Source: Acidobacteriota bacterium (lineage in GTDB: Bacteria; Acidobacteriota; Vicinamibacteria; Vicinamibacterales; CAVVIG01). From it: a DNA stretch of 64,000 bases. Shown piece by piece: positions 3,837-61,554 of this stretch; within the stretch, counting starts at the first letter, position 1, and every line of letters starts with the position of its first letter. The DNA lies in contig QHWJ01000232.1 in assembly GCA_003222535.1 (NCBI GenBank), forward strand, positions 1 to 64,000, written 5' to 3'. Under the pieces are notes generated by a model, which had not been told where the DNA came from, made no database searches, and was given only the letters and a program-made list of their open reading frames with translations. A program made the position numbers and the translations under genes.

Positions 3837-4490
3837 ATGGGCCAGATTGTGCCCGACGCCATCGAGCACTATCTTGCGGATCTCAACCGTTTCGGCGATG
3901 CGGTCCTCGACGACATCGCGCGCGGGAACGACGCGCGCGGTCTGCCGCTCGTCGATGCGGAGGTCGGCGCGCTTCTGCGCGTGATGGCGACTGCGGTCGG
4001 CGCGTCACGCATCCTGGAAATCGGCACGGCGATCGGCTATTCCGGCATCTGGCTGGCCGGCGCGCTGCCACCGGGCGGCAGGCTGCTCACGATGGAGATG
4101 AGCGAGGAGCGCGCGCGGGAAGCGCGCGAGAATTTCGCGCGTGCCGGCGTCTCCGAGCGCGTGAGCGTCATTGTCGGCGACGCGCGGCTGAAAATCGCGA
4201 AGGTGTCCGGCCCGTTCGATCTCATTTTTCAGGACGGCGACAAGAAGCTCTACGAGCCGCTCCTCGATCGGCTGGTCGCGCTGCTCCGCCCCGGTGGACT
4301 GCTGATCACCGACAACGTGCTCTGGGACGGCGAGGTGGTGCCGGGATTCGCGTCCGCGTCCCGCCACGATGCGGCGGACACGCGCGCGATTGCCGAATAC
4401 AACGAGCGGGTCGCGTCGCATCCGGAGCTCGTCACGACGATCGTCCCGCTGCGCGACGGCGTGTCGATTTCGGTGAAACGGTCCGGCTGA
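3837..4490 (+). CDS. Class I SAM-dependent O-methyltransferase (catechol OMT-like)
   Basis: ILEIGTAIGYSGIWLAGALPPGGRLLTMEMSEERAREARENF; IFQDGDKKLYEPLLDRLVALLRPGGLLITDNVLWDG. Confidence 0.9.
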   Translation: MGQIVPDAIEHYLADLNRFGDAVLDDIARGNDARGLPLVDAEVGALLRVMATAVGASRILEIGTAIGYSGIWLAGALPPGGRLLTMEMSEERAREARENFARAGVSERVSVIVGDARLKIAKVSGPFDLIFQDGDKKLYEPLLDRLVALLRPGGLLITDNVLWDGEVVPGFASASRHDAADTRAIAEYNERVASHPELVTTIVPLRDGVSISVKRSG

Positions 4491-4498
4491 AGCCGGAC
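4481..4498 (+). repeat. VRLKPD-type palindrome, copy 1
   Basis: GTCCGGCTGAAGCCGGAC, 8-bp arms; contains the stop codon of the preceding methyltransferase. Confidence 0.85.
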
Positions 4499-4569
4499 AC
4501 TACCGAAGCGGGCCGCGCGGCAGTTCCTCACAAGAGATCGGGAGACTCCTGTGAAACGAAATCCTCCTG

Positions 4570-7994: not shown

Positions 7995-8096
7995 TTTTGT
8001 GTAGGGCCAGCCTTTCAGGCTCGCCGATGAGGCGACCCTGTAGGGCGAGCCTTTCAGGCTCGTCATCGCGAGTCCAAAGGGGTCGCCCTCTACGCT
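7995..8096. repeat. Two GTAGGGC(G)AGCCTTTCAGGCTCG palindromic elements
   Basis: tgtagggccagcctttcaggctcgcc and tgtagggcgagcctttcaggctcgtc. Confidence 0.75.
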
Positions 8097-9306: not shown

Positions 9307-10146
9307 CTAACGGATCCACGCTTCCAGCTCTGTGCGCGTGTCGGTGCGCGAGTCGCGGTATTTGACGATCACGGGCGTCCCCAGCGAGAGCCCCCACTCG
9401 ACGCCTTTGCCGGAGGTGACCGCCCGCGCGCCGGGCACGACGACAGCGCCTTCCGGGATGACGAGCGGACGGTCTCCCGCCGGCTTGATGATCTCGCCGT
9501 GGACGAGGTCGTACACCGGCGTGGATCCGGTCAACACGGTGCCGGCGGCGACAACGGCGCGCGCCTTGACGATCGCGCCTTCGTAGATTCCCGTGTTCCC
9601 GCCGATGAGCACGTCGTCTTCGATGATGACGGGCAGGGCGCCGACCGGCTCGATGACGCCGCCGATCTGCGCGGCGGCGCTGACGTGCACGCGTCGGCCG
9701 ACCTGGGCGCAGGATCCCACGAGCGCGTGCGAGTCGATCATCGATCCTTCCTCGACCCGCGCGCCGATGTTCACATACATCGGCGGCATGCAGATGACGC
9801 CCGGCGCGAGGTACGCGCCGTCGCGAATCGCGGATCCGCCGGGCACGATGCGCAGGCCGGCGGCGAGCCCGGGCTTCTTCAACGGCAGCGTGTCTTTGTC
9901 GTAGAACGGCAGGCGGCCGTGATCCATCGAGGCGTCGACGATGTCGCCGAACTTGAACCCGAGCAGGATGCCCTGCTTCACCCATGTGTTCACGCGCCAG
10001 CCAACCGGGCTCGAGGCGTCGGGCTCCGCGGCGCGCACCTCGCCGGAGGACAGCGCCTCGCGCAGACGAGCGAATGCCGCGCGCGCCGAGTCGCGATCGG
10101 CCGACGCGCCGGCCGAAACCAGCTCTTTGATGTCGGATTCGAGCAT
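9307..10146 (-). CDS. dapD: 2,3,4,5-tetrahydropyridine-2,6-dicarboxylate N-succinyltransferase
   Basis: WRVNTWVKQGILLGFKFGDIVDASMDHGRLPFYDKD...GAYLAPGVICMPPMYVNIGARVEEGSMIDSHALVGSCAQVG; start at MLESDIKELVS. Confidence 0.93.
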   Translation of the reverse strand: MLESDIKELVSAGASADRDSARAAFARLREALSSGEVRAAEPDASSPVGWRVNTWVKQGILLGFKFGDIVDASMDHGRLPFYDKDTLPLKKPGLAAGLRIVPGGSAIRDGAYLAPGVICMPPMYVNIGARVEEGSMIDSHALVGSCAQVGRRVHVSAAAQIGGVIEPVGALPVIIEDDVLIGGNTGIYEGAIVKARAVVAAGTVLTGSTPVYDLVHGEIIKPAGDRPLVIPEGAVVVPGARAVTSGKGVEWGLSLGTPVIVKYRDSRTDTRTELEAWIR

Positions 10147-10155
10147 TTGGGTCCT

Positions 10156-10340
10156 TGGTTCTTGGTACCTGGTGCTTGGTCCGTCCCTGGTCCTTGGTCC
10201 GTCCCTGGTCCTTGGTCCGTCCCTGGTCCTTGGTCCGTCCCTGGTCCTTGGTCCGTCCCTGGTCCTTGGTCCGTCCCTGGTCCTTGGTCCGTCCCTGGTC
10301 CTTGGTCCGTCCCTGGTCCTTGGTCCGTCCCTGGTCCTAA
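10156..10340. repeat. 18-bp tandem repeat (CCGTCCCTGGTCCTTGGT)x9
   Basis: About nine near-perfect 18-bp units; translates as (VRPWSL)9 on + and (GPRTRD)n on -. Confidence 0.95.
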
Positions 10341-10450
10341 GCACACTGGACCGAAGACGGACCAGGAACCAAAGGACCAAGATCGAACAGCCCGTGGTGA
10401 AAGTCTGGCTGCATTCGACCGGTGCGCCGCCAGACGTTCACCACGGACGG

Positions 10451-11350: not shown

Positions 11351-11365
11351 GCGTGCTCTCCGGCA

Positions 11366-11430
11366 GGCCTGACCAGCCTCCGCCACGGCTTCGGCGGTCC
11401 GCCGTAGCTTTCAGCGAAGGCGGAAAGCCT
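11366..11430. repeat. Dispersed element CCTGACCAGCCTCCGCCAMGGCTTCGGCGGTCCGCCGTAGCTT, copy 1
   Basis: Near-identical blocks at 18.96 and 31.14 kb. Confidence 0.85.
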
Positions 11431-11502
11431 GCACTCCAACGACCAACGCCAACGCTCGGCTGAAGCCTTGGCGCTCCAACCTACCCGAACTCCGCCCTGC
11501 CT

Positions 11503-11661
11503 GACCTACCCGACCTATCCGACCTACCCGACCTACCCGACCCGCGCGACCTACCCGACCCACGCGACCTACCTGACCCACGCGACCTACCCGACCCACG
11601 CGACCTACCTGACCTACCCGACCCACCCGACCTATCCGACCTATCCGACCTATCCGACCCC
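11503..11661. repeat. 9-bp tandem array (GACCTACCC)n with variants
   Basis: gacctacccgacctatccgacctacccgacctacccgacccgcgcgacctacccgacccacg... Confidence 0.92.
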
Positions 11662-12342
11662 GAGCACATCGTGCATTGTGTACCAACCCTGTTTGCCCTG
11701 AATCCATCGGGCGGCGGCGAGCGCGCCACGGGCGAAGGCGGTGCGGTCGCGGGCAGCGTGCGTCAGCGTAATCGTTTCCGCCGGGCCGTCGAAGCCGACT
11801 GTATGTGTGCCGGGAATGAAACCGGCGCGGGCCGACGAGACGTCGATCGGCCGCGAAAACCCCGCGTGCTCCATCGCGTGCTTCAGGAGCAGCGCTGTGC
11901 CCGAGGGCGCGTCTTTCTTCGCGGCGTGATGCGCTTCATGCAGAAACGCGCCGAAGTCCGCCTGCGGGGCGAACAGCTTCGCGGCCTGCGCGACGATAGC
12001 CTCGAAGAGCACGACGCCGGTGGAAAAATTCGGCGCGACCACAATCCCGACGCCGGCGTCCGCGATCACCTGCCTGAGCGCGACCTCGTGGGGGGACCAT
12101 CCGGTCGTGCCGACGACCAGGCAAATGCCACGTCGCGCGAGCACCGCCGCATTGGTGGGCACGGAGGCCGCGGTGGAAAAGTCGATCGCGACCTCGACCC
12201 CCGTCCAGCGATCGGCGTCCGGCCCGCCGCCGTGGAGCGGAGAGACCGGGTCGATCACGCCAGCGACTTCGCAGTCGTACTGGCCCGCCAGCTCCCCGAC
12301 GAGCTGCCCCATCTTGCCGTGGCCGACCAGCAGAATCCGCAT
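11650..12342 (-). CDS. dapB: 4-hydroxy-tetrahydrodipicolinate reductase
   Basis: MRILLVGHGKMGQLVGELA...VAIDFSTAASVPTNAA...LVVGTTGW...VVAPNFSTGVVLF...EAHHAAKKDAPSGTALLL. Confidence 0.93.
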   Translation of the reverse strand: MRILLVGHGKMGQLVGELAGQYDCEVAGVIDPVSPLHGGGPDADRWTGVEVAIDFSTAASVPTNAAVLARRGICLVVGTTGWSPHEVALRQVIADAGVGIVVAPNFSTGVVLFEAIVAQAAKLFAPQADFGAFLHEAHHAAKKDAPSGTALLLKHAMEHAGFSRPIDVSSARAGFIPGTHTVGFDGPAETITLTHAARDRTAFARGALAAARWIQGKQGWYTMHDVLGVG

Positions 12343-18920: not shown

Positions 18921-18960
18921 CCAGGCGCGCGAGCCTTTCAGGCGAGCGATCGCCGGCACG

Positions 18961-19036
18961 CCCGCCTGACCAGCCTCCGCCAAGGCTTCGACGGTCCGCC
19001 GTAGCTTCAGCGACGGCGGAGAGCCTCGCGCTCCAG
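18961..19036. repeat. Dispersed element CCTGACCAGCCTCCGCCAAGGCTTCG..., copy 2
   Basis: cctgaccagcctccgccaaggcttcgacggtccgccgtagcttcagcgacggcgga. Confidence 0.85.
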
Positions 19037-23086: not shown

Positions 23087-26000
23087 TCAAACCGCCGAGT
23101 CGGGACGAGCAGTCGGTACGCGAACCCTGGTTACCAATGCTCCGAAGTCGTCGATCGGCGCGTCGGCGCTCGAGTGTCGTTCCAGCCGCTGCTCGGGCCG
23201 ATCCAGACGACTGGCGGCGGCGGCGACGAACATCGCTTTCACAGACGCCGGCAGCACCTCGCCAAGGCTGCCGCGCCCCGTCCGGCAGACGCCGTCTTTC
23301 ACGGTGGCCGACAGATACAACCGGTCGCGGGCGCGCGTCAGCGCGACGTACAGGAGCCGCCTGGTCTCCTCGCGATCGCGGGCCTGTGCGTCTTCGTCGG
23401 CTTCCGACTGATAGTCTGCAATCGCGACCGATGCCTCTCCCGCCACATCGTCGGTGACGCGAATCGGTGCGCGCGGGCCGCCCGTGCCGCGGCCCATGTT
23501 GACGACAAAGACAATCGGGAATTCGAGGCCTTTGGCCGCATGGACCGTCATGAGACTGACCGCATCGATCGCGTCGATGGCGGCGTTCGATTCGTCGCCG
23601 ACGGCAAGCCGCTCCAGATGATCGGCGATGCGGGCAAGCGTCGCGTATCCCCGGTTCTGCGCGCGGCGGATCATGCCTCGCAGCTTCTTCAGGTTCTCGC
23701 GCGCCTGGCGGCGGCGGGAGCCGCGCAGCTCGAACGCGTACGCCGTTTCGTGGAGCACGGTGTCGAAGAGCTCCGAGGGCGCCAGGTGATCCACCCACGA
23801 GAGCCAGCGAGGCACCCCGCGTCGCAGCAAAGCGAGGACGCGGCGGTCTTCGTCACCGAGTGCCGCCAGCGCGGGCAGCGGATCGACGCTGAGGATTGCC
23901 GCGGCGGACTCAGGTCCGAGCCGCGCCACGGCAGTATCCGACAGACGCACGATGCGCGACCGCAGCAGCGTCGCCGCGCGCAGATCCGACAGCGGATCGG
24001 CAAGGTACCGCAGCAGCGCGACCGCGTCCTGAATCTCATCGGCGTCGAAGAAGCCGAGTCCCTTGTAGACGTAGGTCGGAACCCCCCGGCGGTCGAGCGC
24101 GGCTTCGAAATCCCTGTGGCTGTCGCGCGAGCGGAACAGGATCGCGATGTCAGCGGCGCGAGCCTGGCGCCGCACGCCGGTTGTGCGGTCCCCAACGGTG
24201 GCGCCGGAGAGGAGCTGCACGATCTCGCCGGCGACCGAATCGGCGGCCGCCTGCACGGTGTCGCCGACGATGAACCGGACGGGGTTCTCGTCACGGTCCG
24301 GCTGAAGCCGGACACGACCGGAATGTCCTGCCGCATCGGTTTCGTCCGTCGGGTTCGGCTTTATCCGGACCGTCGTAGGGGCACCGATCGGAAACCGATC
24401 GTGACAACCGTAGCGGAAGGCATCCTTTCGCGGGGTCGCGGTGGGTGCATCGCTCCCGACGATCGCCTCGAAAACACCGTTCACGAAAGCCAGGATCTCC
24501 GGCGCGGATCGAAAACTGACGGTGATCGCCTGCCTCGGCAGACCGTCGGGCCGCAGCGCCTCGATGAACGCCGCCGCTTCGTCAACCAACGCGACGTCGG
24601 CGTCGCGAAACCCGTAGATGGACTGCTTCCGGTCGCCGACAAGGAAGATCGACGGCGGGATGGCATCGTGGGCGGCGCCGACTCCTTCACCCCAGCTCTT
24701 CACGAGCTGCCGCACGAGCTCCCACTGCGCGCGGCTGGTGTCCTGAAATTCATCGACGAGCACGTGACGATGGCGCGCTTCGAGGCGCAGGCGGCTCTCC
24801 GCGAACTCGTCCATGTCTCTCAACAGCTTGACCGCGCGCTCGAGGACGCCCGAGAAGTCGAGAAGCGCGTGCGCCTCCAGCGTGTGCTGATACTGCCGCA
24901 TCGCCACGGCGAAGATGCGCCATACGCCGCGGGACATCACGGCGTTGAGATCGCGCCGGAACGCGCGGATGGCCTCCGCCACCGCCGGCGCAATCTGGGA
25001 CGCCGCGGCCCGGTGCCGCTTCCACGCATCCGCGCAATCGCAGTCGGCGGCGGTGAAACGTGTGCCGGCGAATTTCTCGGTCCGCGGCTTGCCGTCCTGG
25101 GTCAGGAAGTACGCGCGCAGGCGGTCGACGAGCGCGCGGAACGCGGCTTGAGCTTCGCGCGACGACATTCCGGATTGCGGATGGCGGATTGCGGATTCGA
25201 TCGCGGATTCGGGGATTGCGGATTCCGAACTCAAGCGCCGCACGTCGTCCGCGAGCATCGCGAACTGCGGGTGGCGCACCGGGCCGTCGCCCAGGAACGC
25301 TTCGACGCCGTCGCGCACGCCGGCGAAGACATCGCGCAGCCGGGCCGCGGCGCGGGCGCAGGCCGTTGCCGCGGTCAAATCGCGCGGCCCCTTCTGGAGG
25401 AAGCGGCGCAGCGCATGCGGCGCCACCAGCCGCCGATCCAGCAGCGTCGCAACGCCGCCGCGCAGACGCCGCTCGCCGAGCTGCGCGAACACCAGCGCGA
25501 CATCGTCATCGTCGCGGGCGATGCCGCGGCAGATGCGAAGGGCTTGATCGAGCGACTCTCCGATCAGGCGAGGGACCTCGGTGTTGTCCGCGAGGTCGAA
25601 TCCGGGATCGACGTCGGCCTCGAGTGGAAACTCGCGCAGCAGAGACAGACAGAACGCGTCGATGGTCGAGACCGCGATGTCGCCGAGCCGCTCCCGGACG
25701 TCGCGCCAGCGCGCCGCGTCGAGCTCGGACAGGCGGCTCGCCTCCTTCAGCCGTTCGATGACGCGCAGCCGCATCTCGGCAGCCGCTTTGCGGGTAAACG
25801 TGATCGCGAGGATGTGATCCGGCTCGACGCCGGCGCGCAGCAGGTTGACATAGCGTTCGACCAGCACCTGTGTCTTGCCGGTGCCGGCCGACGCCTCGAG
25901 GACGATGTTCTTCGAAGGATCGACAGCGTAGCGCCGCGCGGTGGCGTCCGGAAGGTCCGGCTGAAGCCGGACGCCACGAAGATTGTCGTCGTGGTCCGGC

Positions 26001-26137
26001 TTGAGCCGGACACCACAAAGATCGCCGTCACCGTCCCGCTCGAGACGCGGACCGTTGTCGCGATCCACCACTTGCGTGGGGTCCGGCTTCAGCCGGACCG
26101 GTTCCTCATCGTCGAACGGCAGCATCGGCTCACACAT
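23087..26137 (-). CDS. AddA/UvrD-family helicase without evident C-terminal nuclease domain
   Basis: IVLEASAGTGKTQVLVERYVNLLRAGVEPDHILAITFTRKAAAEM; RHVLVDEFQDTSRAQWELV; VGDRKQSIYGFRDAD; MTVHAAKGLEFPIVFVVNMGRG. Confidence 0.9.
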   Translation of the reverse strand: MCEPMLPFDDEEPVRLKPDPTQVVDRDNGPRLERDGDGDLCGVRLKPDHDDNLRGVRLQPDLPDATARRYAVDPSKNIVLEASAGTGKTQVLVERYVNLLRAGVEPDHILAITFTRKAAAEMRLRVIERLKEASRLSELDAARWRDVRERLGDIAVSTIDAFCLSLLREFPLEADVDPGFDLADNTEVPRLIGESLDQALRICRGIARDDDDVALVFAQLGERRLRGGVATLLDRRLVAPHALRRFLQKGPRDLTAATACARAAARLRDVFAGVRDGVEAFLGDGPVRHPQFAMLADDVRRLSSESAIPESAIESAIRHPQSGMSSREAQAAFRALVDRLRAYFLTQDGKPRTEKFAGTRFTAADCDCADAWKRHRAAASQIAPAVAEAIRAFRRDLNAVMSRGVWRIFAVAMRQYQHTLEAHALLDFSGVLERAVKLLRDMDEFAESRLRLEARHRHVLVDEFQDTSRAQWELVRQLVKSWGEGVGAAHDAIPPSIFLVGDRKQSIYGFRDADVALVDEAAAFIEALRPDGLPRQAITVSFRSAPEILAFVNGVFEAIVGSDAPTATPRKDAFRYGCHDRFPIGAPTTVRIKPNPTDETDAAGHSGRVRLQPDRDENPVRFIVGDTVQAAADSVAGEIVQLLSGATVGDRTTGVRRQARAADIAILFRSRDSHRDFEAALDRRGVPTYVYKGLGFFDADEIQDAVALLRYLADPLSDLRAATLLRSRIVRLSDTAVARLGPESAAAILSVDPLPALAALGDEDRRVLALLRRGVPRWLSWVDHLAPSELFDTVLHETAYAFELRGSRRRQARENLKKLRGMIRRAQNRGYATLARIADHLERLAVGDESNAAIDAIDAVSLMTVHAAKGLEFPIVFVVNMGRGTGGPRAPIRVTDDVAGEASVAIADYQSEADEDAQARDREETRRLLYVALTRARDRLYLSATVKDGVCRTGRGSLGEVLPASVKAMFVAAAASRLDRPEQRLERHSSADAPIDDFGALVTRVRVPTARPDSAV
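24296..24370 (-). repeat. Two in-frame VRLKPD-type palindromes inside addA-like gene
   Basis: 24296-24313 GTCCGGCTGAAGCCGGAC (VRLQPD) and 24353-24370 gttcggctttatccggac (VRIKPN). Confidence 0.85.
25168..25232 (-). repeat. GGATTGCGGATT-type repeat inside addA-like gene
   Basis: ccggattgcggatggcggattgcggattcgatcgcggattcggggattgcggattcc, encoding ESAIPESAIESAIRHPQSG; same family as 1083-1110. Confidence 0.75.
25954..26098 (-). repeat. Three in-frame VRL[K/Q]PD palindromes at N-terminus of addA-like gene
   Basis: GTCCGGCTGAAGCCGGAC 25954-25971; GTCCGGCTTGAGCCGGAC 25993-26010; GTCCGGCTTCAGCCGGAC 26081-26098. Confidence 0.92.
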
Positions 26138-29054
26138 CACCGACGTAATCCTTTCGGCAGACCGATGCAAAGCTGCAGCTCTCGCAACGATACACGTCGT
26201 CCGGCATCGGCGGGAACTCGCCACGCGCGATGGCGTCGACCGTGTCGGCGAGCCGCTGCTGAGCGTCGGCCAGCACTTTCACGCGATCGGCCGCCGACGA
26301 GAAGAGCGGGACCACGCGCCGCGGTCCTTTGAAGGCGAGGAACACGGCTTCACCAAGCGTCCAGGTTCGCCCCCTGTGCCCGGCGAGCCGCTGCTCGGCG
26401 CACAGGCTGTAGATCGGAAGCTGCAGCGCCCTGCCGCGTTTCGGCGGCCACCCGAGCTTGTAGTCGATCAGGCGGAATGATCCATCCTCGAGAAGATCGA
26501 GGCGGTCCGCCTTGCCGCGGAGGGCGATGGCGCGCGGCCCATCGGCCGTGGCGATCGAGAGCTCCCCGTCCAGCCGCCGCTCGAGCAGACGCTCGACGAC
26601 GGCGATGGGACGTTCGGCTTCCATGCGAAGGACCGCTTCTCCAAGCCCCGCGGCGGCTGGCGATCCGAGCAGTCGCGTCCGCTCCAGCCCCGCTTCGGCG
26701 GCCGGCAGGCGCTCGAGCGCGCCATCGACGACGGCGGTGAACATGTCGCGCGCGTCATCGAGATTCTCCGGCGTGATGGCCCGGTGCCCGGCGTCCTGCC
26801 ACGCCGCGAAGAACGTCTGGAACACGTCGTGCACGAACTGCCCCTGACGCCGCGGATCCATCACCTCCTCGTCCTCGGGCTCTTCCTCGATCTTCAGCAC
26901 GTGCTGCGCGAAGAACTTGAACGGGCAGTCGAGATACGTCTCGATCGCGCTGACCGACCAGGCGCGCGCCGGCACGTCGCGCGCGGTGCCGTGATAGTCC
27001 GGACCGTCCGCCGGCGACCGGCCCGTTCGCAGCTCGGCCCAGACGCGCGCTTCTCCCTCGAACGGATCGAGCGCGATCGGCTCCAGTGCCAGCGCTTCGT
27101 CGGCGAAGATGCGGGCATTGTCGAACGGCGTTCCCGCGACGGTCGACAACCGCGCCCGCGGAATCTCGTCGAGCTGCATCGACCGCGACACGAGCGCGTC
27201 CTCGTCCAGCGTGAACGTCGACACGATCGTCCGGCGCGACGCGCACGTCAGCAGGTCGAGAAAGCGCGCGTCGTCCGCCGCACGCCGATCCTTCTCCGAC
27301 GGCCATCCCAGCGACGCGAGGAGCGACGGCGGATAGAAGATGTTCCGCCGCGGCCGCTCCGGCCAATCCGGCTCGATGACGCCGACAATCGCCACGTCGT
27401 CGAAATCTCCGTAGCGCACGGCCCGGTCGTCGAGCAGAAACAGACCCGCGCCGGCCGATTGCTGGACGAAGGTCTGCTCGCCGATCCACCGTCGCACGGC
27501 GATCCCCACGTCGTCCACGGTCCAGGGCGGATCGTCGTGCGCCGCGTGAACGGCGGTGAGCGCGCTCAGCATGTCGACCACCGCCGCCCGCGCGCGTCGC
27601 TCGCGAGAAGCGTATGGGTCGTCATCGGCGATGGGACGCGAATGCGCCGACCAGAACGCCAGCAGCCGCGCGATCTGCGTCGACGCGGGGAGGGACGTGG
27701 CCAGCGGCGCGAGCTCGCGCGCCGCGGCAAGTGCCGCGTGCAGCGCCGGGAACGAAGCCGCTGAATGCCATTCCGTTGCCAGCGCTTCCAGCCGATCGAG
27801 GTCGCCGAGGTACCGCGCCTGGCTCAACGCGCGGTCGAGCGCGCTGACCGACTCACGCGTGACATCCGCGTCGCCGTCACCGAACGTGAAATGCGGCGAT
27901 CGCAGCAGGGCGACCAGCGTGCCGCGCGAAAAATCCGCCGCGACCGTCTCCAGCACGAGGTCGATGGCGGCCGCCGTCGGCTCGGCGGCGAGCGGCAGCG
28001 CGTCGGATGACTGATACGGGATGCCCGCCGCGCGGAAAACCTCCGCGGCGAGATACAGGTAAGGGAGCGGACGCTTGAACACGACCGCCGTGCGAGCCAG
28101 CGGCACCGCGTCACCGGTCCGCTTGTCGGCTTTCAAGCGGCGCGCAATCGCGACGAGCTCCTCTTCTCGATCGCGCAGCGTCCACCACGGCTCGTCGGTG
28201 GACGCGTCCGGCGGCGTGATCAGGGCCGGCCCGAAAGCCTGCACGACACCTGGTGATGAAACCTCTTCGAGTCCCGGCCACCAGGTGTGCAGCCGTTCGT
28301 GAAAGCCGGACGCGAGAACCCGCTCGGTCGACACGATGTCGAGCGCCTCGAGTCCGGGAATCCGCGTCAGAAGATCGAAGTCGGCGGCGTACAGACCGTC
28401 TGCATCCGCGATCCAGTCAGCGACGGTGACAATGACGTGGCGGATCGGATCGGCAGATGGCTCGGCCATGAGCCGTTCACGGAGCGTGTGCTCGTCGCAT
28501 GCGCCCGAATCGCGCACCCGACGCTCGTACTCGCGAAACGCCCCGGCCAGAAACCGCGTCTGCTTCCGCAAGCGCTCGGCGGCCCGATCGGCGTCGTCCA
28601 GGCCGAGCGCCTCGTCGATCAGCTCCTCGAACCGCTTCACCTGCTGCGATTGGCGGCGCAGATGATCGTAGAAGCGGAGCATCTCGGCGATCAGGCCGGG
28701 CCGGAGCTGAAATGACAGCTCGCCTCCGGCGGCGGCCGCGGCGCGTGCGGCGCCCTGAGTGATGACATCGCGTTCCAATGCGCTGAGCCGGCGCGGCGGA
28801 TTTGTCAGTCGATCGTGCAGCCGGTCGTACAGTTCATCACGAGTGACGATGTCGGGTCCGTCGAGCGCGCGTTGCAACTGACGCGCGGCTCCGCGCGTCG
28901 GGACCACGACCAGGACGGGTTCAGGGTTCAGGGTTCCGGGTTCCGGGCTCAGAGCTCCAGGTTCAGGGGTCAGCGTGACGAGATTTACGATGACGTGTCG
29001 GAAGGCGTGCAGTCCGGGGACGCGGATGAGCTGCGTGCGGCGAGGCGTGATCAC
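26130..29054 (-). CDS. AddB-like PD-(D/E)XK nuclease with Fe-S cysteines
   Basis: SAIETYLDCPFKFFAQHVLKI...FRLIDYKLGWPPKRGRALQLPIYSLCAEQ...VYRCESCSFASVCRKD. Confidence 0.88.
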   Translation of the reverse strand: MITPRRTQLIRVPGLHAFRHVIVNLVTLTPEPGALSPEPGTLNPEPVLVVVPTRGAARQLQRALDGPDIVTRDELYDRLHDRLTNPPRRLSALERDVITQGAARAAAAAGGELSFQLRPGLIAEMLRFYDHLRRQSQQVKRFEELIDEALGLDDADRAAERLRKQTRFLAGAFREYERRVRDSGACDEHTLRERLMAEPSADPIRHVIVTVADWIADADGLYAADFDLLTRIPGLEALDIVSTERVLASGFHERLHTWWPGLEEVSSPGVVQAFGPALITPPDASTDEPWWTLRDREEELVAIARRLKADKRTGDAVPLARTAVVFKRPLPYLYLAAEVFRAAGIPYQSSDALPLAAEPTAAAIDLVLETVAADFSRGTLVALLRSPHFTFGDGDADVTRESVSALDRALSQARYLGDLDRLEALATEWHSAASFPALHAALAAARELAPLATSLPASTQIARLLAFWSAHSRPIADDDPYASRERRARAAVVDMLSALTAVHAAHDDPPWTVDDVGIAVRRWIGEQTFVQQSAGAGLFLLDDRAVRYGDFDDVAIVGVIEPDWPERPRRNIFYPPSLLASLGWPSEKDRRAADDARFLDLLTCASRRTIVSTFTLDEDALVSRSMQLDEIPRARLSTVAGTPFDNARIFADEALALEPIALDPFEGEARVWAELRTGRSPADGPDYHGTARDVPARAWSVSAIETYLDCPFKFFAQHVLKIEEEPEDEEVMDPRRQGQFVHDVFQTFFAAWQDAGHRAITPENLDDARDMFTAVVDGALERLPAAEAGLERTRLLGSPAAAGLGEAVLRMEAERPIAVVERLLERRLDGELSIATADGPRAIALRGKADRLDLLEDGSFRLIDYKLGWPPKRGRALQLPIYSLCAEQRLAGHRGRTWTLGEAVFLAFKGPRRVVPLFSSAADRVKVLADAQQRLADTVDAIARGEFPPMPDDVYRCESCSFASVCRKDYVGDV
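28918..28976 (-). repeat. GGTTCAGGGTTCCGGG tandem-like repeat inside addB-like gene
   Basis: ggttcagggttcagggttccgggttccgggctcagagctccaggttcaggggtcag; encodes LTPEPGALSPEPGTLNPEPV. Confidence 0.8.
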
Positions 29055-31031: not shown

Positions 31032-32294
31032 ATGCGGCCGCATCGTGCCGGTTTCGTGCTCGTCACCGTTCTCGCTGTGTGCGCCCCGCGTCCGGCTCAG
31101 CCAATGGAGGGCGGGCCTTTCCGGCGAGCCGGTCGCCCGGCTGACCAGCCTCCGCCAAGGCTTCGGCGGTCCGCCGTAGCTTTAGCGAAGGCGGAACGCG
31201 TCGCGCTCCACGCAGTCCCCGGAGGGCGAGAAGACAGGCAGGCGCAAGCGGCTTCCTCGGCAGAGGGTCAGCAGCCGTCACAGGCGGCAGCCGCTCGCGT
31301 CCGACTCGTCGCCACGGGCGGCACGATCTCCAACCGCACCGGCGGCCGTCTCACGGCCGAAGAGCTGGTGCAATCGATGCCGGGCCTCGAGCGTTACGTC
31401 CGGCCCGAGTTCGAACAGTTCTCCAATGTGGCCAGCAGCGAGCTGACGCTCGATCAGTGGCTCGCGCTTGCCAGGCGGTTGAACGAGATCTTCGCGACCG
31501 ACGCGGGCATCAGCGGCCTGGTCGTCACGAGCGGCACCGACACGCTGGAAGAGCTCGCCTATTTCCTCAACCTCACCGTGCGCAGCGAGAAGCCGGTCGT
31601 CGTGGTGGGGTCCATGCGCAATCCCAGCGCGCTCGGCTACGAAGGCGCGGCCAACCTGCTCGAAGGCTTCCGCGTGGCCGCCTCGGAAGACGCGCGGGGC
31701 AAGGGCGTTCTGGTCGTGCTCAACGACGAGATCAACGCGGCGCGCGAGGTGACCAAGACCGACGCGCTGCGGCTGGGCACGTTCCAGACGCGCGGTTATG
31801 GCGTGCTCGGCGTGATCGATGCGGATCGCGCCGTCTTCTATCGCAACGTGGTCAAACGCCACACCGCGAAGAGCGAGTTCGACGTGAGGTCGGTGACGAG
31901 GCTGCCCCGTGTCGACGTGCTCATGGTGTATCAGGGAGCCGACGGCGATCTGATCAAGGCGGCCGCGGACGCGGGCGCCCGCGGCATCGTCATGGCCGCG
32001 GCGGGCGCTGGAGCGACGAGCGGGACGCAGCAGGCCGGCATCACGTACGCTCTCAAGAAAGGCGTCCTCGTCGTGACGACGACGAGAGCGGGCAGCGGAC
32101 GAATTGCGCCGCGGCGCGGACCCGACGCGGCGCAGCCCGCGCGGAGCGTCACCGATCCGCTGACGGCGTTCGAACGGGCCCGTCGAATCGCCGGCGAGGA
32201 TCTGTCGCCCGTCAAGGCGCGAGTTCTCCTGATGCTGGCGCTGACACGCACCACCGATCCCGCCGAGATACAGCGGATGTTTCTCGAGTACTGA
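31032..32294 (+). CDS. Type II L-asparaginase family protein with repeat-derived N-terminal insert
   Basis: VRLVATGGTISNRTGG...GLVVTSGTDTLEELAYFLNLTV...VLVVLNDEINAAREVTKTDALRLGTF. Confidence 0.9.
   Translation: MRPHRAGFVLVTVLAVCAPRPAQPMEGGPFRRAGRPADQPPPRLRRSAVALAKAERVALHAVPGGREDRQAQAASSAEGQQPSQAAAARVRLVATGGTISNRTGGRLTAEELVQSMPGLERYVRPEFEQFSNVASSELTLDQWLALARRLNEIFATDAGISGLVVTSGTDTLEELAYFLNLTVRSEKPVVVVGSMRNPSALGYEGAANLLEGFRVAASEDARGKGVLVVLNDEINAAREVTKTDALRLGTFQTRGYGVLGVIDADRAVFYRNVVKRHTAKSEFDVRSVTRLPRVDVLMVYQGADGDLIKAAADAGARGIVMAAAGAGATSGTQQAGITYALKKGVLVVTTTRAGSGRIAPRRGPDAAQPARSVTDPLTAFERARRIAGEDLSPVKARVLLMLALTRTTDPAEIQRMFLEY
31140..31210. repeat. Dispersed element CTGACCAGCCTCCGCCAAGGCTTCGG..., copy 3 (inside asparaginase ORF)
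   Basis: ctgaccagcctccgccaaggcttcggcggtccgccgtagctttagcgaaggcggaacg. Confidence 0.88.
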
Positions 32295-44983: not shown

Positions 44984-46396
44984 ATGTCCTTCCGCACTGA
45001 ACGCGACCCGCTTGGTGAGCTCCCGGTTCCCGCCGACGCGTACTACGGGGTGCAGACCCAGCGCGCCATCGAGAACTTCCCCATCAGCGGCCTGAGGGCG
45101 CCCGCGGATCTCGTGGTCGCGACCATCCTCGTGAAGAAGGCCGCGGCCGAAGCCAATGCCGCGCTGGGGCGGCTGGACCGGGACATCGCTGCCGCCATCC
45201 TCGACGCCGCCGATGAAATCCTGAGCGGCCGACTCCGCGATCAGTTCGTCGTCGACGTATACCAGGCGGGCGCCGGCACGTCGCACAACATGAACGCGAA
45301 CGAGGTGCTGGCGAATCGCGCCGGCGAGATCCTCGGCGAGCCGAGAGGCACGTACAGACGCGTGCATCCGAACGACCACGTGAACATGGGCCAGTCGACG
45401 AACGACGTGTTTCCGACGGCGACGCGCCTGGCGCTGCTGCTCGGCGCCGTGCTGCTCGGCGCGAACGCCCACGTCCTCGCCGAAAGCCTGGCGCACAAAG
45501 CGGACGAGTTCGCGGACGTCCTGAAGACGGGCCGGACGCATCTGCAGGATGCCGTGCCGATCACCCTCGGGCAGGAGTTCAGCGGATACGCCGACTGCGT
45601 GCGCCGCGGAGCCGAGGACGTCCGACACGCATCGGAACAGCTGGAGGAGCTGAACATCGGGGCGACGGCGGTCGGCACGAGCTTGAACGCGGGCGACGAA
45701 TACCGGCGGCTCGTGGTGCGGAACCTCGCGCGATACACGAACCTTCCCCTCAAGCCGGCGTCGAATCTGTTTCGCGTGACACAGAGCATGGGCGACGTGC
45801 TCGCCTATTCGAGCGCGATGCGGCGGCTTGCCGTCGAAGTCGGCAAGATCGCGAGCGACCTGCGGTTGCTGAGCATGGGGCCGCGAGCGGGGATATCCGA
45901 GATCTCGCTGCCCGCAGTGCAGCCGGGATCGTCGATCATGCCTGGCAAGGTGAATCCGTCGGTTCCGGAGATGGTCAACCAGGTGTGCTTCCAGGTGGTG
46001 GGCTGCGACACGACCGTCGCGATCGCCTGTGAGGCCGGCCAGCTCGAGCTCAACGTGATGATGCCGGTCATCGCATGGAACGCCCTTCACGCCTCGACGA
46101 TTCTGCGCGAATCGATGAAAGTGTTCCGCCACCGCTGCGTCGACGGCATCGCCGCGGACCGGACGCGCGCCCGCGATCTGCTCGAGCGGAGCACAGCAAG
46201 CGCCACCGCGCTCAGTCCGTACATCGGCTACGCCGCCACGGCGGACATCGCGAAGGAGTCGGTGAAGACCGGCAGGTCGATCCGCGAGCTCGTCCTCGAG
46301 CGCGGCCTCGTCGACGCCACGCGACTCGACGACATCCTCTCGCTGAATTCGATGACGCGGGGCGGAATCGTGGGAGACGATAGGAAGGACGTGTAG
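44984..46396 (+). CDS. aspA: Aspartate ammonia-lyase
   Basis: ERDPLGELPVPADAYYGVQTQRAIENFPISG; HPNDHVNMGQSTNDVFPTA; EISLPAVQPGSSIMPGKVNPSVPEMVNQVCFQVVG. Confidence 0.93.
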   Translation: MSFRTERDPLGELPVPADAYYGVQTQRAIENFPISGLRAPADLVVATILVKKAAAEANAALGRLDRDIAAAILDAADEILSGRLRDQFVVDVYQAGAGTSHNMNANEVLANRAGEILGEPRGTYRRVHPNDHVNMGQSTNDVFPTATRLALLLGAVLLGANAHVLAESLAHKADEFADVLKTGRTHLQDAVPITLGQEFSGYADCVRRGAEDVRHASEQLEELNIGATAVGTSLNAGDEYRRLVVRNLARYTNLPLKPASNLFRVTQSMGDVLAYSSAMRRLAVEVGKIASDLRLLSMGPRAGISEISLPAVQPGSSIMPGKVNPSVPEMVNQVCFQVVGCDTTVAIACEAGQLELNVMMPVIAWNALHASTILRESMKVFRHRCVDGIAADRTRARDLLERSTASATALSPYIGYAATADIAKESVKTGRSIRELVLERGLVDATRLDDILSLNSMTRGGIVGDDRKDV

Positions 46397-46401
46397 GGCG
46401 G

Positions 46402-46545
46402 ATGGGTCAAGTAGGTCAAGTAGGTCAGGTAGGTCAAGTAGGTCAAGTAGGTCAGGTAGGTCAGGTAGGTCAGGTAGGTCAGGTAGGTCAGGCAGGTCAG
46501 GCAGGTCAGGTAGGTCAGGTGGGTCAGGTGGGGCTGGCAGGTCGG
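46402..46545. repeat. 9-bp tandem array (GTCAGGTAG / GTCAAGTAG)n
   Basis: gggtcaagtaggtcaagtaggtcaggtaggtcaagtag... about 15 units; in frame with following CDS as (GQV)n. Confidence 0.95.
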
Positions 46546-47289
46546 GTGCGGCAGGTTGGGAAAACACTTGTCACGCTGCTCGTGTGCTTTTTCGCGTTCG
46601 CTTCGTCCCTCCCTGCCCTTCCTGCCTTCCAGGCTCCGCGTCCCGCCACTCCAGCCCGTCCTGTCCAGGCAGCGAAGCCGAAAGGCCGTCTCTTCCGATC
46701 GCAGGATCTGGGACTGCTCGAAGCGCCGGATCGCGAAGAATGGCAGCAGCCGGATCAGATTCTGGACGCGCTGGGCGTCGCGGAAGGCGCCGTGGTCGCG
46801 GAGCTCGGGGCGGCCGGCGGCTGGTTCACGCTGCGTCTCGCGACGCGAGTCGGTCCGAACGGGCTCGTCTACGCCGAGGACATTCAGCCGGAGATGATCG
46901 AAGCGATCGGCCGGCGCATGCAGAGCGAGAACCTGGCGAATGTGAAGCCCGTGCTCGGTACGCCAAGCAACCCGCGGCTGCCGTCGGGCCTGGACGCGGC
47001 ACTCATCTCCGACGCGTTTCACGAGATGGACGTTCCGGAGGACCCCACGCTTGTCGTCACGCTGTTGAAGAACATCGGGCGCTCGCTCAAACCACAGGGC
47101 CGGCTCGGCATCGTCGACTGGACGCCGGGCGCGGGCGGCCCGGGACCGCCCGCGGATCAGCGCGTGAATCCCGCGGCGGTGATCAGGGCGGCGAGTGCCG
47201 CAGGGCTGCAGTTGATCTTGCGCGAGGATTTTCCGCCGTTCGTGTTTCTGCTGGTGTTCGGACGGGCTAACGCGCGTTCGTCCCCCTGA
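46546..47289 (+). CDS. Secreted class I SAM methyltransferase-like protein
   Basis: VRQVGKTLVTLLVCFFAFASSLPALPAFQ (signal) ... VVAELGAAGGWFTLRLATRVGPNGLVYAEDIQPEMIEAIGRRM; GTG start assumed, ATG at 46402 possible. Confidence 0.8.
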   Translation: MRQVGKTLVTLLVCFFAFASSLPALPAFQAPRPATPARPVQAAKPKGRLFRSQDLGLLEAPDREEWQQPDQILDALGVAEGAVVAELGAAGGWFTLRLATRVGPNGLVYAEDIQPEMIEAIGRRMQSENLANVKPVLGTPSNPRLPSGLDAALISDAFHEMDVPEDPTLVVTLLKNIGRSLKPQGRLGIVDWTPGAGGPGPPADQRVNPAAVIRAASAAGLQLILREDFPPFVFLLVFGRANARSSP

Positions 47290-48815: not shown

Positions 48816-48886
48816 TGGCATTTCTTCACAGGCTCCAAAACCGGACACTGCTGGAACGGTGAAAGCCAGCAACCGCCCTCGGTAGT

Positions 48887-48904
48887 GTCCTGCTTCAGCC
48901 GGAC
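48887..48904. repeat. VRLKPD-type palindrome (one mismatch) upstream of moaE
   Basis: gtcctgcttcagccggac, preceded by gtagt as mirror of copy 1 flank (cactac). Confidence 0.8.
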
Positions 48905-52200: not shown

Positions 52201-52257
52201 CGTCGTATTTCCAGGCGAAGCTTCGTTACTAACCGTCGGCAGAACCGGCCGTCCAAC

Positions 52258-52400
52258 GCTCAGGGCGCAGGGCGCAGGGCGCAGGGCGCAGGGCGCAGGG
52301 CGCAGGGCGCAGGGCGCAGGGCGCAGGGCGCAGGGCGCAGGGCGCAGGGTTCAAGGCTCAAGGCTCAGGGCGCAGGGTTCAAGGCTCAAGGCTCAATCTG
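52258..52400. repeat. Heptanucleotide tandem repeat (GGGCGCA)n then GGTTCAAGGCTCAAGGCTC
   Basis: cagggcgcagggcgcagggcgc... about 12 units. Confidence 0.95.
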
Positions 52401-52433
52401 AGCATTGCATTCTGAATTCCGCGATTTCACCAC

Positions 52434-58620: not shown

Positions 58621-61554
58621 ATGCCTGAGTGGAAAGACACCGTCAACCTGCCGCGCACCGACTTCCCGATGAAGGCGAGCCTGCCCACGAGCGAGCCCGA
58701 GACGCTCGCCCGCTGGGCGGCGATGGACCTGTACGGCAGAATTCGCGCGCGCCGGAAGGGCGCGCCGAAGTTCGTGCTGCACGACGGCCCGCCGTACGCG
58801 AACGGCAACATCCACATGGGCACGGCGCTCAACAAGATCCTGAAGGAGCTCGTCGTCAAATCGCGGTCGATGGCCGGCTTCGACGCGCCCTACGTCGTCG
58901 GATACGACTGCCACGGGCTGCCGATCGAGCTGCTGGTCGATCGCGAGCTCGGCCCGAGGAAGCGCGAGATGTCGGTGGCCGACTTCTGCCGCGCGTGCCG
59001 CGAGTACGCCAATCGGTACATCGGCGCGATGACCGAGCAGTTTCAGCGCCTCGGCATCCTCGGCACCTGGGACGCGCCGTATCTGACGATGAACTTCAAG
59101 TATCAGGCCGCGATCGCGCGCGCGTTCGGCCGGTTCGTCGCGCAGGGGCTCGTCTACAAGGGCAAGAAACCGGTGCACTGGTGCATTCACTGCCGCACCG
59201 CGCTCGCCGAGGCCGAGGTCGAGTACAAGGACCACACGTCACCGTCGATCTACGTCGAGTTCGCCCTCGCTGAAGACGGCCGGGCCGAGCTCGCGCGCCG
59301 CGTGCCGGCATTGGCCGGACGCGACGTCTCCGTGCTGATCTGGACGACGACGCCCTGGACGATTCCGTCGAATCTGGCGATCGCCTTCCATCCGGAGGTC
59401 GATTACGCGGCGTACGGCGTGGACGGCCGCGCCGTCATCGTCGCCGAAGCGCTGGCGTCGAGGGTCGGTGCGACCGTCGGGAAAACGTTCGGCCCGCCGC
59501 TCGCGCGGATGAAAGGCGCGGAGCTCGAGCACGTCCGCTTTCAGCATCCGTTGTACGCGCGCGCATCGGTCGGCGTCCTCGGCGACTACGTGACCCTCGA
59601 AGCAGGCACGGGCGCGGTGCACACGGCTCCCGGGCACGGCGCCGACGATTTCAGTACCGGGATGAAGTACGGGCTGGAGATCTACGCGCCCATCGGGCCG
59701 GCTGGCCATTTCCTCGACACCGTGGCACTGTTTGGCGGCCAGCGCGTGTTCGACGCCAACCCGAACGTGGAGGCGGCGCTCAAGGAGCGCGGCCGGCTGT
59801 GGCACCGTGAGTCGTTCACGCACCAGTATCCGCACTGCTGGCGCTGCCACAACCCGGTCATCTTCCTCGCGACGTCGCAGTGGTTCATCGCGCTCGATCG
59901 GGTCCCGCTGAAGGGCGACGAGGTCCGGCTGAAGCCGGACAGTGCCGAAACACGTGCGGACGGCGGCTCCCGTAGCGTCGGGCCTCAGCCTGACCGTGAC
60001 GCCGATGGCCGGCCCGCTCAAGGCAAAACGCTCCGCGAAGCGGCGCTCGATGCAATCGACAACCAGGTCAGGTGGATTCCCTCATGGGGCCACGACCGCA
60101 TGTACAACATGGTAGCGAACCGGCCGGACTGGTGCATCTCGCGCCAGCGTTCGTGGGGTGTGCCGATCCCGGCCGTCGATTGCACGAAATGCGGCGAGGC
60201 GATCACGACGCCGGCGCTCGTCGAGAAGGCCGCGGGCGTCTTCGACACCTACGGCGCCGATGCCTGGTACGAGCGGCCGACCGAGGAATTCATCCCGGAG
60301 GGTTTGACGTGCCCGTCCTGCAGCGGCACGAGCTTCGAGCGCGAGATGAACATCCTCGACGTCTGGTTCGATTCCGGATCGAGCCACGAGGCCGTGCTCT
60401 CGGTCCGTCCCGACCTGACGTGGCCGGCCGACATCTATCTCGAAGGCAGCGATCAGCACCGCGGCTGGTTCCAGAGCTCGCTGCTCGTCGGCCTCGGCAC
60501 GCGCGGCCGGCCACCTTTTCGCCAGGTTGTGACGAATGGGTTCCTGATCGATGTCGACGGGAACAAAATGTCGAAGTCCGTCGGCAACACGATTCTGCCG
60601 CAGGACGTGATCAACGAGAGCGGCGCGGACATCATCCGCCTGTGGGTCGCAATGAGCGAGTACCAGGAGGAAATCCGCGTGGGCAAGGAGATCCTCGCCC
60701 GCGTCGCCGAGGCGTACCGCAAGCTGCGCAACACGCTGCGGTATCTGCTCGGGAACCTCTACGACTTCGACCCGGCGGCCGACGCCGTGGCGCACGGGAA
60801 GCTGGAAGAGGTCGACCGGTACATCCTCGCGCGGTACGGCGACGTGGCGCGGCGCATTCTCGTCGCCTACGAGGAATACGACTACGGCACGATTTCCCAG
60901 GCGCTCAATCAGTTCGCCACGGTGGATCTGAGCGCGTTCTACAACGATATCTCGAAGGATCGCTTGTATACCTTCGCGGCGCGGTCCCCCGCGCGGCGAT
61001 CGGCGCAGACGGCGATGTATCTGATGGCGGACGGGTTGACCCGCCTCATGGCGCCGATTCTGTCGTTCACGGCCGACGAGCTGTGGCGGCGTCTTCCGGG
61101 GGCGCGTGAGGAATCGGTGCACATGGCCGTTTTCCCGGCCGTGGCCGCGCTACAGCTGTTCACAGACCCCGAGCTGGTCGCCCGGTGGAACACGCTGGTC
61201 GCTCTCCGAGAGCATGTGCTCGCCGAAATCGAGCCGATGCGCAAGAACAAGCAGATTGGCAGCTCGCTGCAGGCGAAGGTGGTGCTGTCCGCCGCATCAT
61301 CCGAACTCGCATTGCTGGAACGGTACGCGCGGCAGCTGCCGATGCTCTTCATCGTCTCCGAGGTGGAACTTCGTCCGGCGCCAGGTGACGTCGGCGCGCA
61401 TGGCGAGGATCGACCGCGAGTGACCATCGAGCGCGCGACCGGCGTCAAGTGCGAGCGCTGCTGGCGGTACGTACCGGCGGTCTCGACCGATCCGGCATCG
61501 GCCGGCTTGTGCGAGCGGTGCCAGGACGCCCTGGCGGAGCCGGTGCATGGATGA
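58621..61554 (+). CDS. ileS: Isoleucyl-tRNA synthetase with repeat-derived insertion
   Basis: HDGPPYANGNIHMGTALNKILKELVVKS; RPDWCISRQRSWGVPIPAVDC; DVDGNKMSKSVGN; C-term zinc CERCWRYV...CERCQ. Confidence 0.96.
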   Translation: MPEWKDTVNLPRTDFPMKASLPTSEPETLARWAAMDLYGRIRARRKGAPKFVLHDGPPYANGNIHMGTALNKILKELVVKSRSMAGFDAPYVVGYDCHGLPIELLVDRELGPRKREMSVADFCRACREYANRYIGAMTEQFQRLGILGTWDAPYLTMNFKYQAAIARAFGRFVAQGLVYKGKKPVHWCIHCRTALAEAEVEYKDHTSPSIYVEFALAEDGRAELARRVPALAGRDVSVLIWTTTPWTIPSNLAIAFHPEVDYAAYGVDGRAVIVAEALASRVGATVGKTFGPPLARMKGAELEHVRFQHPLYARASVGVLGDYVTLEAGTGAVHTAPGHGADDFSTGMKYGLEIYAPIGPAGHFLDTVALFGGQRVFDANPNVEAALKERGRLWHRESFTHQYPHCWRCHNPVIFLATSQWFIALDRVPLKGDEVRLKPDSAETRADGGSRSVGPQPDRDADGRPAQGKTLREAALDAIDNQVRWIPSWGHDRMYNMVANRPDWCISRQRSWGVPIPAVDCTKCGEAITTPALVEKAAGVFDTYGADAWYERPTEEFIPEGLTCPSCSGTSFEREMNILDVWFDSGSSHEAVLSVRPDLTWPADIYLEGSDQHRGWFQSSLLVGLGTRGRPPFRQVVTNGFLIDVDGNKMSKSVGNTILPQDVINESGADIIRLWVAMSEYQEEIRVGKEILARVAEAYRKLRNTLRYLLGNLYDFDPAADAVAHGKLEEVDRYILARYGDVARRILVAYEEYDYGTISQALNQFATVDLSAFYNDISKDRLYTFAARSPARRSAQTAMYLMADGLTRLMAPILSFTADELWRRLPGAREESVHMAVFPAVAALQLFTDPELVARWNTLVALREHVLAEIEPMRKNKQIGSSLQAKVVLSAASSELALLERYARQLPMLFIVSEVELRPAPGDVGAHGEDRPRVTIERATGVKCERCWRYVPAVSTDPASAGLCERCQDALAEPVHG
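59923..59994 (+). repeat. Two VRLKPD-family palindromes in frame inside ileS
   Basis: 59923-59940 GTCCGGCTGAAGCCGGAC (VRLKPD); 59977-59994 gtcgggcctcagcctgac (VGPQPD, diverged). Confidence 0.88.

Follow-up and report, generated by a model that had tools for sequence, protein, structure and literature searches.

A short palindrome that recurs in and around an AddA-like helicase gene of a Vicinamibacterales-type acidobacterium (genome G000) is the core of a GTRG-tagged REP. We consider it very probable that the copies form one REP family, spread by a REP-associated tyrosine (HuH/Y1) transposase (RAYT) and tolerated mostly between genes, that the copies found inside genes are survivors that kept the frame open in a permissive segment, and that the peptides they encode are by-products of linker lengthening. 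In the mechanism that we propose, the sole RAYT of the genome, its own gene bracketed by the same REP, would disperse the elements, most likely as single-strand hairpins; insertion would mostly be tolerated between genes, and copies within genes would persist only where the reading frame is open and the segment is a disordered linker or a domain boundary. The permissive segments of AddA would be the N-terminal leader preceding xARxxAVDP and the internal loop following DRFP, each invaded repeatedly, and the encoded peptides (VRLxPD..., VVSGFSRT) would add length to linkers without constituting a conserved motif.

Anatomy and copies of the element

The starting point was a stretch of DNA of 64,000 nucleotides (the window), in which palindromes with up to 2 mismatches occur 7 times against 0.03 expected from dinucleotide shuffles. 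Three 18-bp palindromes lie near the N-terminus of the AddA-like helicase, at 25955-25972, 25994-26011 and 26081-26098; the first-pass annotation had placed the last of these exactly and the other two one base too early (25954 and 25993), and it had correctly described all three as sharing the helicase frame, the minus-strand AddA open reading frame translating each as VRL[K/Q]PD. The same gene holds two further in-frame copies, one at 24296 that reads VRLQPD and a degenerate one at 24353 that reads VRIKPN, and the copies previously noted at 4481 and 48887 as lying between genes are intergenic in our gene model (Table 1).

Table 1. REP copies in the window and the operon that hosts five of them
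Feature	Position	Strand	Remarks
REP copy, intergenic	4481..4503	-	GTAGT foot
AddA-like UvrD-family helicase, host gene	23087..26140	-	start GTG 26140 or ATG 26137, overlapping AddB stop
REP copy, fourth in frame, internal AddA loop, DRFP/VRFIVGDT interval	24296..24318	-	foot GTCGT; VRLQPD
REP copy, fifth, internal AddA loop shared with the 24296 copy	24348..24371	+	degenerate (GTCGGGTTCGGCTTTATCCGGACC); gene strand encodes VRIKPNP
REP copy, AddA N-terminal linker	25955..25977	-	GTGGC foot + GTCCGGCTTCAGCCGGAC; encodes (G)VRLQPD
REP copy, AddA N-terminal linker	25994..26016	-	GTGGT foot + GTCCGGCTCAAGCCGGAC; encodes (G)VRLKPD
REP copy, AddA N-terminal linker, opposite orientation	26076..26098	+	GTGGG foot + GTCCGGCTTCAGCCGGAC; gene strand encodes VRLKPDPT
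AddB-like PD-(D/E)XK nuclease, same operon, upstream of AddA	26130..29054	-	
REP copy, intergenic	48882..48904	+	GTAGTGTCCTGCTTCAGCCGGAC, one stem mismatch
REP copy with decayed foot (GCACT)	59923..59945	-	within + strand ORF 58621-61554, codon 435, VRLKPD frame (from ORF-coordinate arithmetic; absent from the census calls)

The complete element is asymmetric and reads 5'-GTRG-N-GTCCGGCTTCAGCCGGAC. Of 367 copies, the great majority have a GTAG or GTGG foot that is separated from the stem by 1 nt; the stem has 8 bp with a 2-nt loop or, as folded, 7 bp with a 4-nt loop (z=-4.6 for folding of the single-stranded DNA hairpin). Pair 6 of the stem is G-C in 261 of the 367 copies, C-G in 97 and A-T in 2, and so varies in a compensatory manner, while the other pairs are nearly invariant. 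Copies with unlike stems also form head-to-head pairs at a fixed start-to-start distance of 31 bp on six contigs (C25, C39, C48, C258, C268, C417), and tandem copies are spaced 33-49 bp apart. Searched with GTRGBGTCCGSCTTHAGSCGGAC, the 8.06 Mb of G000 (450 contigs) gave 108 matches and the reversed control none; the genome-wide count that had been proposed earlier likewise found the exact 18-mer 100 times and its reversed control 0 times. Because it has a GTRG foot, forms a hairpin with compensatory stem changes, is dispersed in about 100 copies and occurs in BIME-like pairs, we identify the palindrome as a REP, and the foot, the GC-rich compensated stem, the dispersed high copy number and the inverted pairs (BIME/REPIN) are those of the GTAG type. 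An RPE-like CGTC element was rejected, the foot being GTRG. The remark that this motif is different therefore stands in relation to the Rickettsia palindromic elements (RPEs) and falls in relation to the standard GTAG-REP, to which the element conforms. In a 297-genome sample of the phylum, the exact GTAGT form had 0 matches outside the order (about 265 sampled genomes); judged by sequence, the REP family is new and belongs to an acidobacterial lineage, its type of element being already known.

Other repeats occur in the same window. At 8004-8064 lies a second REP-like family (GTAGGGCGACCCTTTCAGGGTCGCC / GGGCGAGCCTTTCAGGCTCGCC) with at least 106 matches in G000 (up to 2 mismatches; control 0), present though G000 shows only one Y1 gene. 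A dispersed repeat of 77 nt with internal inverted repeats (TCCGCCAAGGCTTCGGCGG...CCGTAGCTTTAGCGAAGGCGGA) is found at 11362-11438, 18959-19035 and 31134-31210 and is possibly another REP/BIME-like family. Tandem arrays stand at or near gene boundaries at 10129-10356 (18-base unit), 11476-11678 (9), 46355-46570 (9) and 52230-52423 (7).

Genomic setting and host genes

The setting of the copies was surveyed in a subset taken from regions of G000 (145 copies) and of the relative G013 (222 copies), with genes called by a home-made 3-periodic Markov model on fragmented MAG contigs after masking of the REPs. Between 77 and 85% of the sampled copies were called outside genes, mainly between unidirectional or convergent genes. 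In a stricter census, which excludes copies whose in-frame stop ends a gene, 33/145 copies in G000 and 33/222 in G013 lie in frame within genes, that is 15-23%, against a coding fraction of 86-89% of the DNA. The hosts belong to ordinary Pfam families, including a protein kinase, a CDC48-type ATPase, an S9 peptidase, a second UvrD/PD-(D/E)XK protein, an alanyl-tRNA synthetase-like protein, an Lhr helicase, a xanthine dehydrogenase, sulfatases and penicillin amidases, among others. Within 26 of these proteins, 11 of 39 REPs fall inside Pfam domains where domain coverage predicts 20 (P=0.001), a test that is approximate because the domain limits were set by hand from the best stretches. The in-gene REPs sit mostly in inter-domain linkers.

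Reading frame and the encoded peptides

Of the six combinations of orientation and frame, four are free of stops in a GTAG copy and five in a GTGG copy, and VRLxPD accounts for two of the stop-free frames, the core being an 18-bp palindrome; it was rightly seen at the outset that VRLxPD is read in this frame from either strand. The in-gene copies are distributed as 40 VRLxPD, 18 SGxSR and 8 PAxAG, where 28.9, 16.8 and 20.3 were expected. Tested copy by copy, the deficit of PAxAG (P=0.0005) and the excess of VRLxPD (P=0.004) are both significant; with one copy per gene the former is weak (mean P 0.012) and the latter non-significant (mean P 0.057), and in G013 alone neither reaches significance. 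These statistics indicate that the bias in peptides is mostly a matter of geometry and of the removal of stop codons, to which unsuitable codons or peptides add a modest contribution at most: GC3 is 1.0 in the VRLKPD and SGFSRT frames, 0.4 in the depleted PAxAG frames and 0.82 in the AddA gene.

These figures bear on the idea, raised in the first-pass annotation, that the palindrome is adapted to be harmless when translated. In its strongest form, the palindrome would have been selected for an innocuous or useful VRLxPD peptide, which would make it either a mobile element adapted to proteins or a linker motif with a function. The five in-frame VRLxPD-type peptides of a single AddA gene, the share of VRLxPD (40/66 in-gene copies), the paucity of PAxAG and the contrast in GC3 all speak for it, but we judge it unlikely. 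The double representation of VRLxPD follows from the palindromic core, the excess and the deficit fade as described once each gene is counted once or G013 is taken alone, the copies are mostly intergenic, and most AddA orthologues in the order lack the motif, the AddA linker elsewhere holding other REP families or simple repeats (see below). Chance and the removal of stop codons explain most of the pattern, with PAxAG alone modestly depleted, so that the comparison of frames with expectation does not bear out the adaptation. VRLKPDTT, VRLKADTT, VVSGFSRT and VRLKPD were also looked up as peptides in the literature, with no result. The REP-coded peptides are presumably neutral.

A probable cognate transposase and copy number in relatives

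A single Y1_Tnp gene was detected in G000 (the L016 open reading frame). Its product carries HVHL and YIVANP motifs, scores 101.2 bits against NF047646 REP_Tyr_transpos (cut-off 80) and is homologous to TnpAREP (4er8), and GTGG REPs of the palindrome's own family bracket the gene in opposite orientations. The REP-associated (TnpA-REP/Y1) transposase that had been suggested as something to look for is thus present and surrounded by the same family; together with the GTRG foot and the roughly 100 copies, its flanks agree with the earlier description of a mobile or amplified palindrome. From these flanks and the copy-number correlation described next, we infer that this RAYT transposes the REPs.

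Copy numbers were compared across 40 genomes, the relatives being mostly Acidobacteria/Vicinamibacterales MAGs, whose fragmentation makes the counts lower bounds. A RAYT flanked by the G000-family REP was found in six of them, with 69 (G000), 7 (G012), 240 (G013), 79 (G021), 96 (G023) and 38 (G036) strict copies, and the other 34, in which this arrangement was not detected, reach a maximum of 33; the six have far more REP copies (P=5e-5, Mann-Whitney, 40 genomes). RAYT-type genes in the relatives are commonly flanked by GTRG hairpins with differing stem sequences, such hairpins being about 7 times denser in RAYT-type loci than in control loci. Related genera provide a set of RAYTs with differing GTRG-REP flanks that could be used to study RAYT/REP co-evolution (L089 in G034, L084 in G005, L095 in G007, L097 in G016, L098 in G027), their stems including GCAAGGCTTTAGCCTTGC and GCGCACGACTTCAGTCGTGCG.

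It seems improbable that the REPs spread independently of the RAYT, whether another transposase moved them or existing hairpins served for recombination or template switching. Some genomes with 10-33 copies (G010, G016, G017, G022 and G024) show no RAYT flanked by the G000-family REP, the 33-49 bp spacing of tandem copies suggests local duplication, and the second REP-like family of G000 (at least 106 matches) exists there without a second Y1 gene; against these observations, the five REP-richest of the 40 genomes all carry a RAYT flanked by exactly the G000-family REP.

Two hypervariable linkers of AddA

The host protein has UvrD_N and UvrD_C domains and adjoins a PD-(D/E)XK AddB-like gene; its best NCBIfam match is addA_alphas, at 329 bits, below the cut-off of 861. 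The start codon (GTG 26140 or ATG 26137) follows AAAGGA and lies upstream of all three N-terminal copies. Since this start overlaps the AddB stop, as the corresponding starts do to a comparable extent in several relatives, the three copies are most likely translated, and since the in-frame starts further downstream that come ahead of the second copy are limited to 26125, 26071 and 26068, the translated gene includes no fewer than two of the copies and most likely the remaining one as well. A start that went unrecognised might in principle lie downstream of the N-terminal copies; a spurious extension of the open reading frame was rejected in view of the AddB overlap and the upstream AAAGGA. Translation of the REP-encoded AddA peptides is on these grounds probable.

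Aligned with its orthologues, AddA shows a hypervariable leader from the start to the conserved xARxxAVDP and a hypervariable loop following DRFP. REPs of the G000 family occupy two leaders, those of G000 and G017, and four internal loops, those of G000, G013, G006 and G023, and the internal loop of G010 has a shorter insert that is likely a REP remnant. In the leader of G024 stand four copies of another REP, GGCGGGTCCTTTCGGACCCGCC and variants, which also flanks the RAYT of G024 itself, and the leader of G013 holds two hairpins of this G024-type REP; the leader insert is absent from G016, the congener of G024, and AddA REPs are absent from other orthologues. On the AddA tree, REP presence requires four changes at each of the two sites, several forks being unresolved and three of the five internal-loop carriers falling within an unresolved polytomy, and some of the changes could be losses after a shared ancestral insertion. 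Both linkers appear from these alignments to have been invaded repeatedly in different genera, by two REP families. The AddA of the window also contains a simple repeat (ATTGCGGATTGCGGATT, 25174-25231) translated as ESAIPESAIESAIRHPQSG, and the relatives L048, L057 and L060 have other translated simple repeats in the leader.

The location of three copies directly after the overlap of AddB stop and AddA start, the strength of the hairpin (z=-4.6) and the REPs described elsewhere as acting on mRNA (PMC3733652, PMC12306157) could suggest that the copies are transcribed RNA hairpins kept for regulation, through attenuation, mRNA stability or translational coupling of AddB and AddA. This is quite improbable, for many orthologous operons lack copies, the copies occur in both orientations, their number varies among genomes, and they are found in internal loops and unrelated genes as well. 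The triplication in the N-terminal region of G000 AddA might imply that VRLxPD is conserved as a motif of AddA and that the palindrome is incidental; this can be discounted almost entirely and was rejected, as the orthologue alignment proposed in the first-pass annotation shows motif and insert in some members of the order and their absence from most, and identical DNA is dispersed between genes across the genome.

A second gene repeats the pattern of a variable linker filled by REPs. A GidA/TrmFO-type gene (L112:3-1247; L305-L320) has, by tblastn, a hypervariable linker flanked by two near-invariant blocks; in G000 and G017 this linker is REP-coded, and G002 and G010 have a short version of it.

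Significance and comparison with known systems

The AddA orthologues offer a natural series in which the same linkers contain from zero to four REPs of different families, so that the origin of a linker from a mobile palindrome can be traced. More generally, REPs might constitute a recurring, RAYT-fed source of new linker sequence; if the linkers of housekeeping proteins are repeatedly colonised by whichever REP family the RAYT of the genome itself spreads, REP turnover would in consequence drive the evolution of hypervariable linkers, a proposal for and against which we see the case as evenly balanced. In a phylum that has received little study, the work connects in-frame insertions in proteins with a REP family and the cognate transposase of that family. 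Annotators of this lineage also gain an explanation for the fragments of VRLxPD and SGFSRT peptide seen in predicted proteins, together with a caution against taking them for functional motifs.

The hairpin, foot and pairing features that define GTAG-REPs and BIMEs have been published (PMC3733652, PMC6006769). Like the known GTAG-REP/RAYT systems (Di Nocera et al., 2013, PMC3733652; Nunvar et al., 2010, PMC2817692; Quentin et al., 2018, PMC6006769), the present one has GTAG or GTGG 0-2 nt from a GC-rich hairpin with a loop of 2-5 nt, a high copy number, head-to-head pairs, an HuH/Y1 gene flanked by the same repeats and a mostly intergenic distribution between unidirectional or convergent genes; unlike them, it is an acidobacterial family of new sequence. 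Di Nocera et al. (2013, PMC3733652) reported in-frame GTAG REPs within genes of several species. Many of these intragenic REPs, singly or in groups, lie in genes for DNA repair, UvrD/Rep helicase and recBCD among them, and the recB genes of two Xanthomonas species carry REPs at roughly matching positions. The in-frame REPs of our helicase gene resemble these intragenic GTAG/CGTC REPs of repair genes; they differ in that the same two AddA linkers appear to have received REPs of two families in several genera, and in that the hypervariable-linker context is resolved here, for the GidA/TrmFO-type gene likewise. What is added to the 2013 work is a clearer recurrent use of the same linkers and the link to a cognate RAYT.

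Two other kinds of palindromic DNA in coding sequence invite comparison. Rickettsia palindromic elements are also short palindromes tolerated in frame within open reading frames; R. conorii RPE sequences have a CGTC tag at their end, with longer insertions including RPE-1 (PMC3733652), whereas the element described here has a GTRG tag and a RAYT flanked by the element. PARCELs (PMC2996958) share with it a repeated peptide encoded by palindromic DNA, but a PARCEL is a 25-residue tandem protein repeat, whereas the peptides here, of 6-8 residues, would be by-products of an element of intergenic type.
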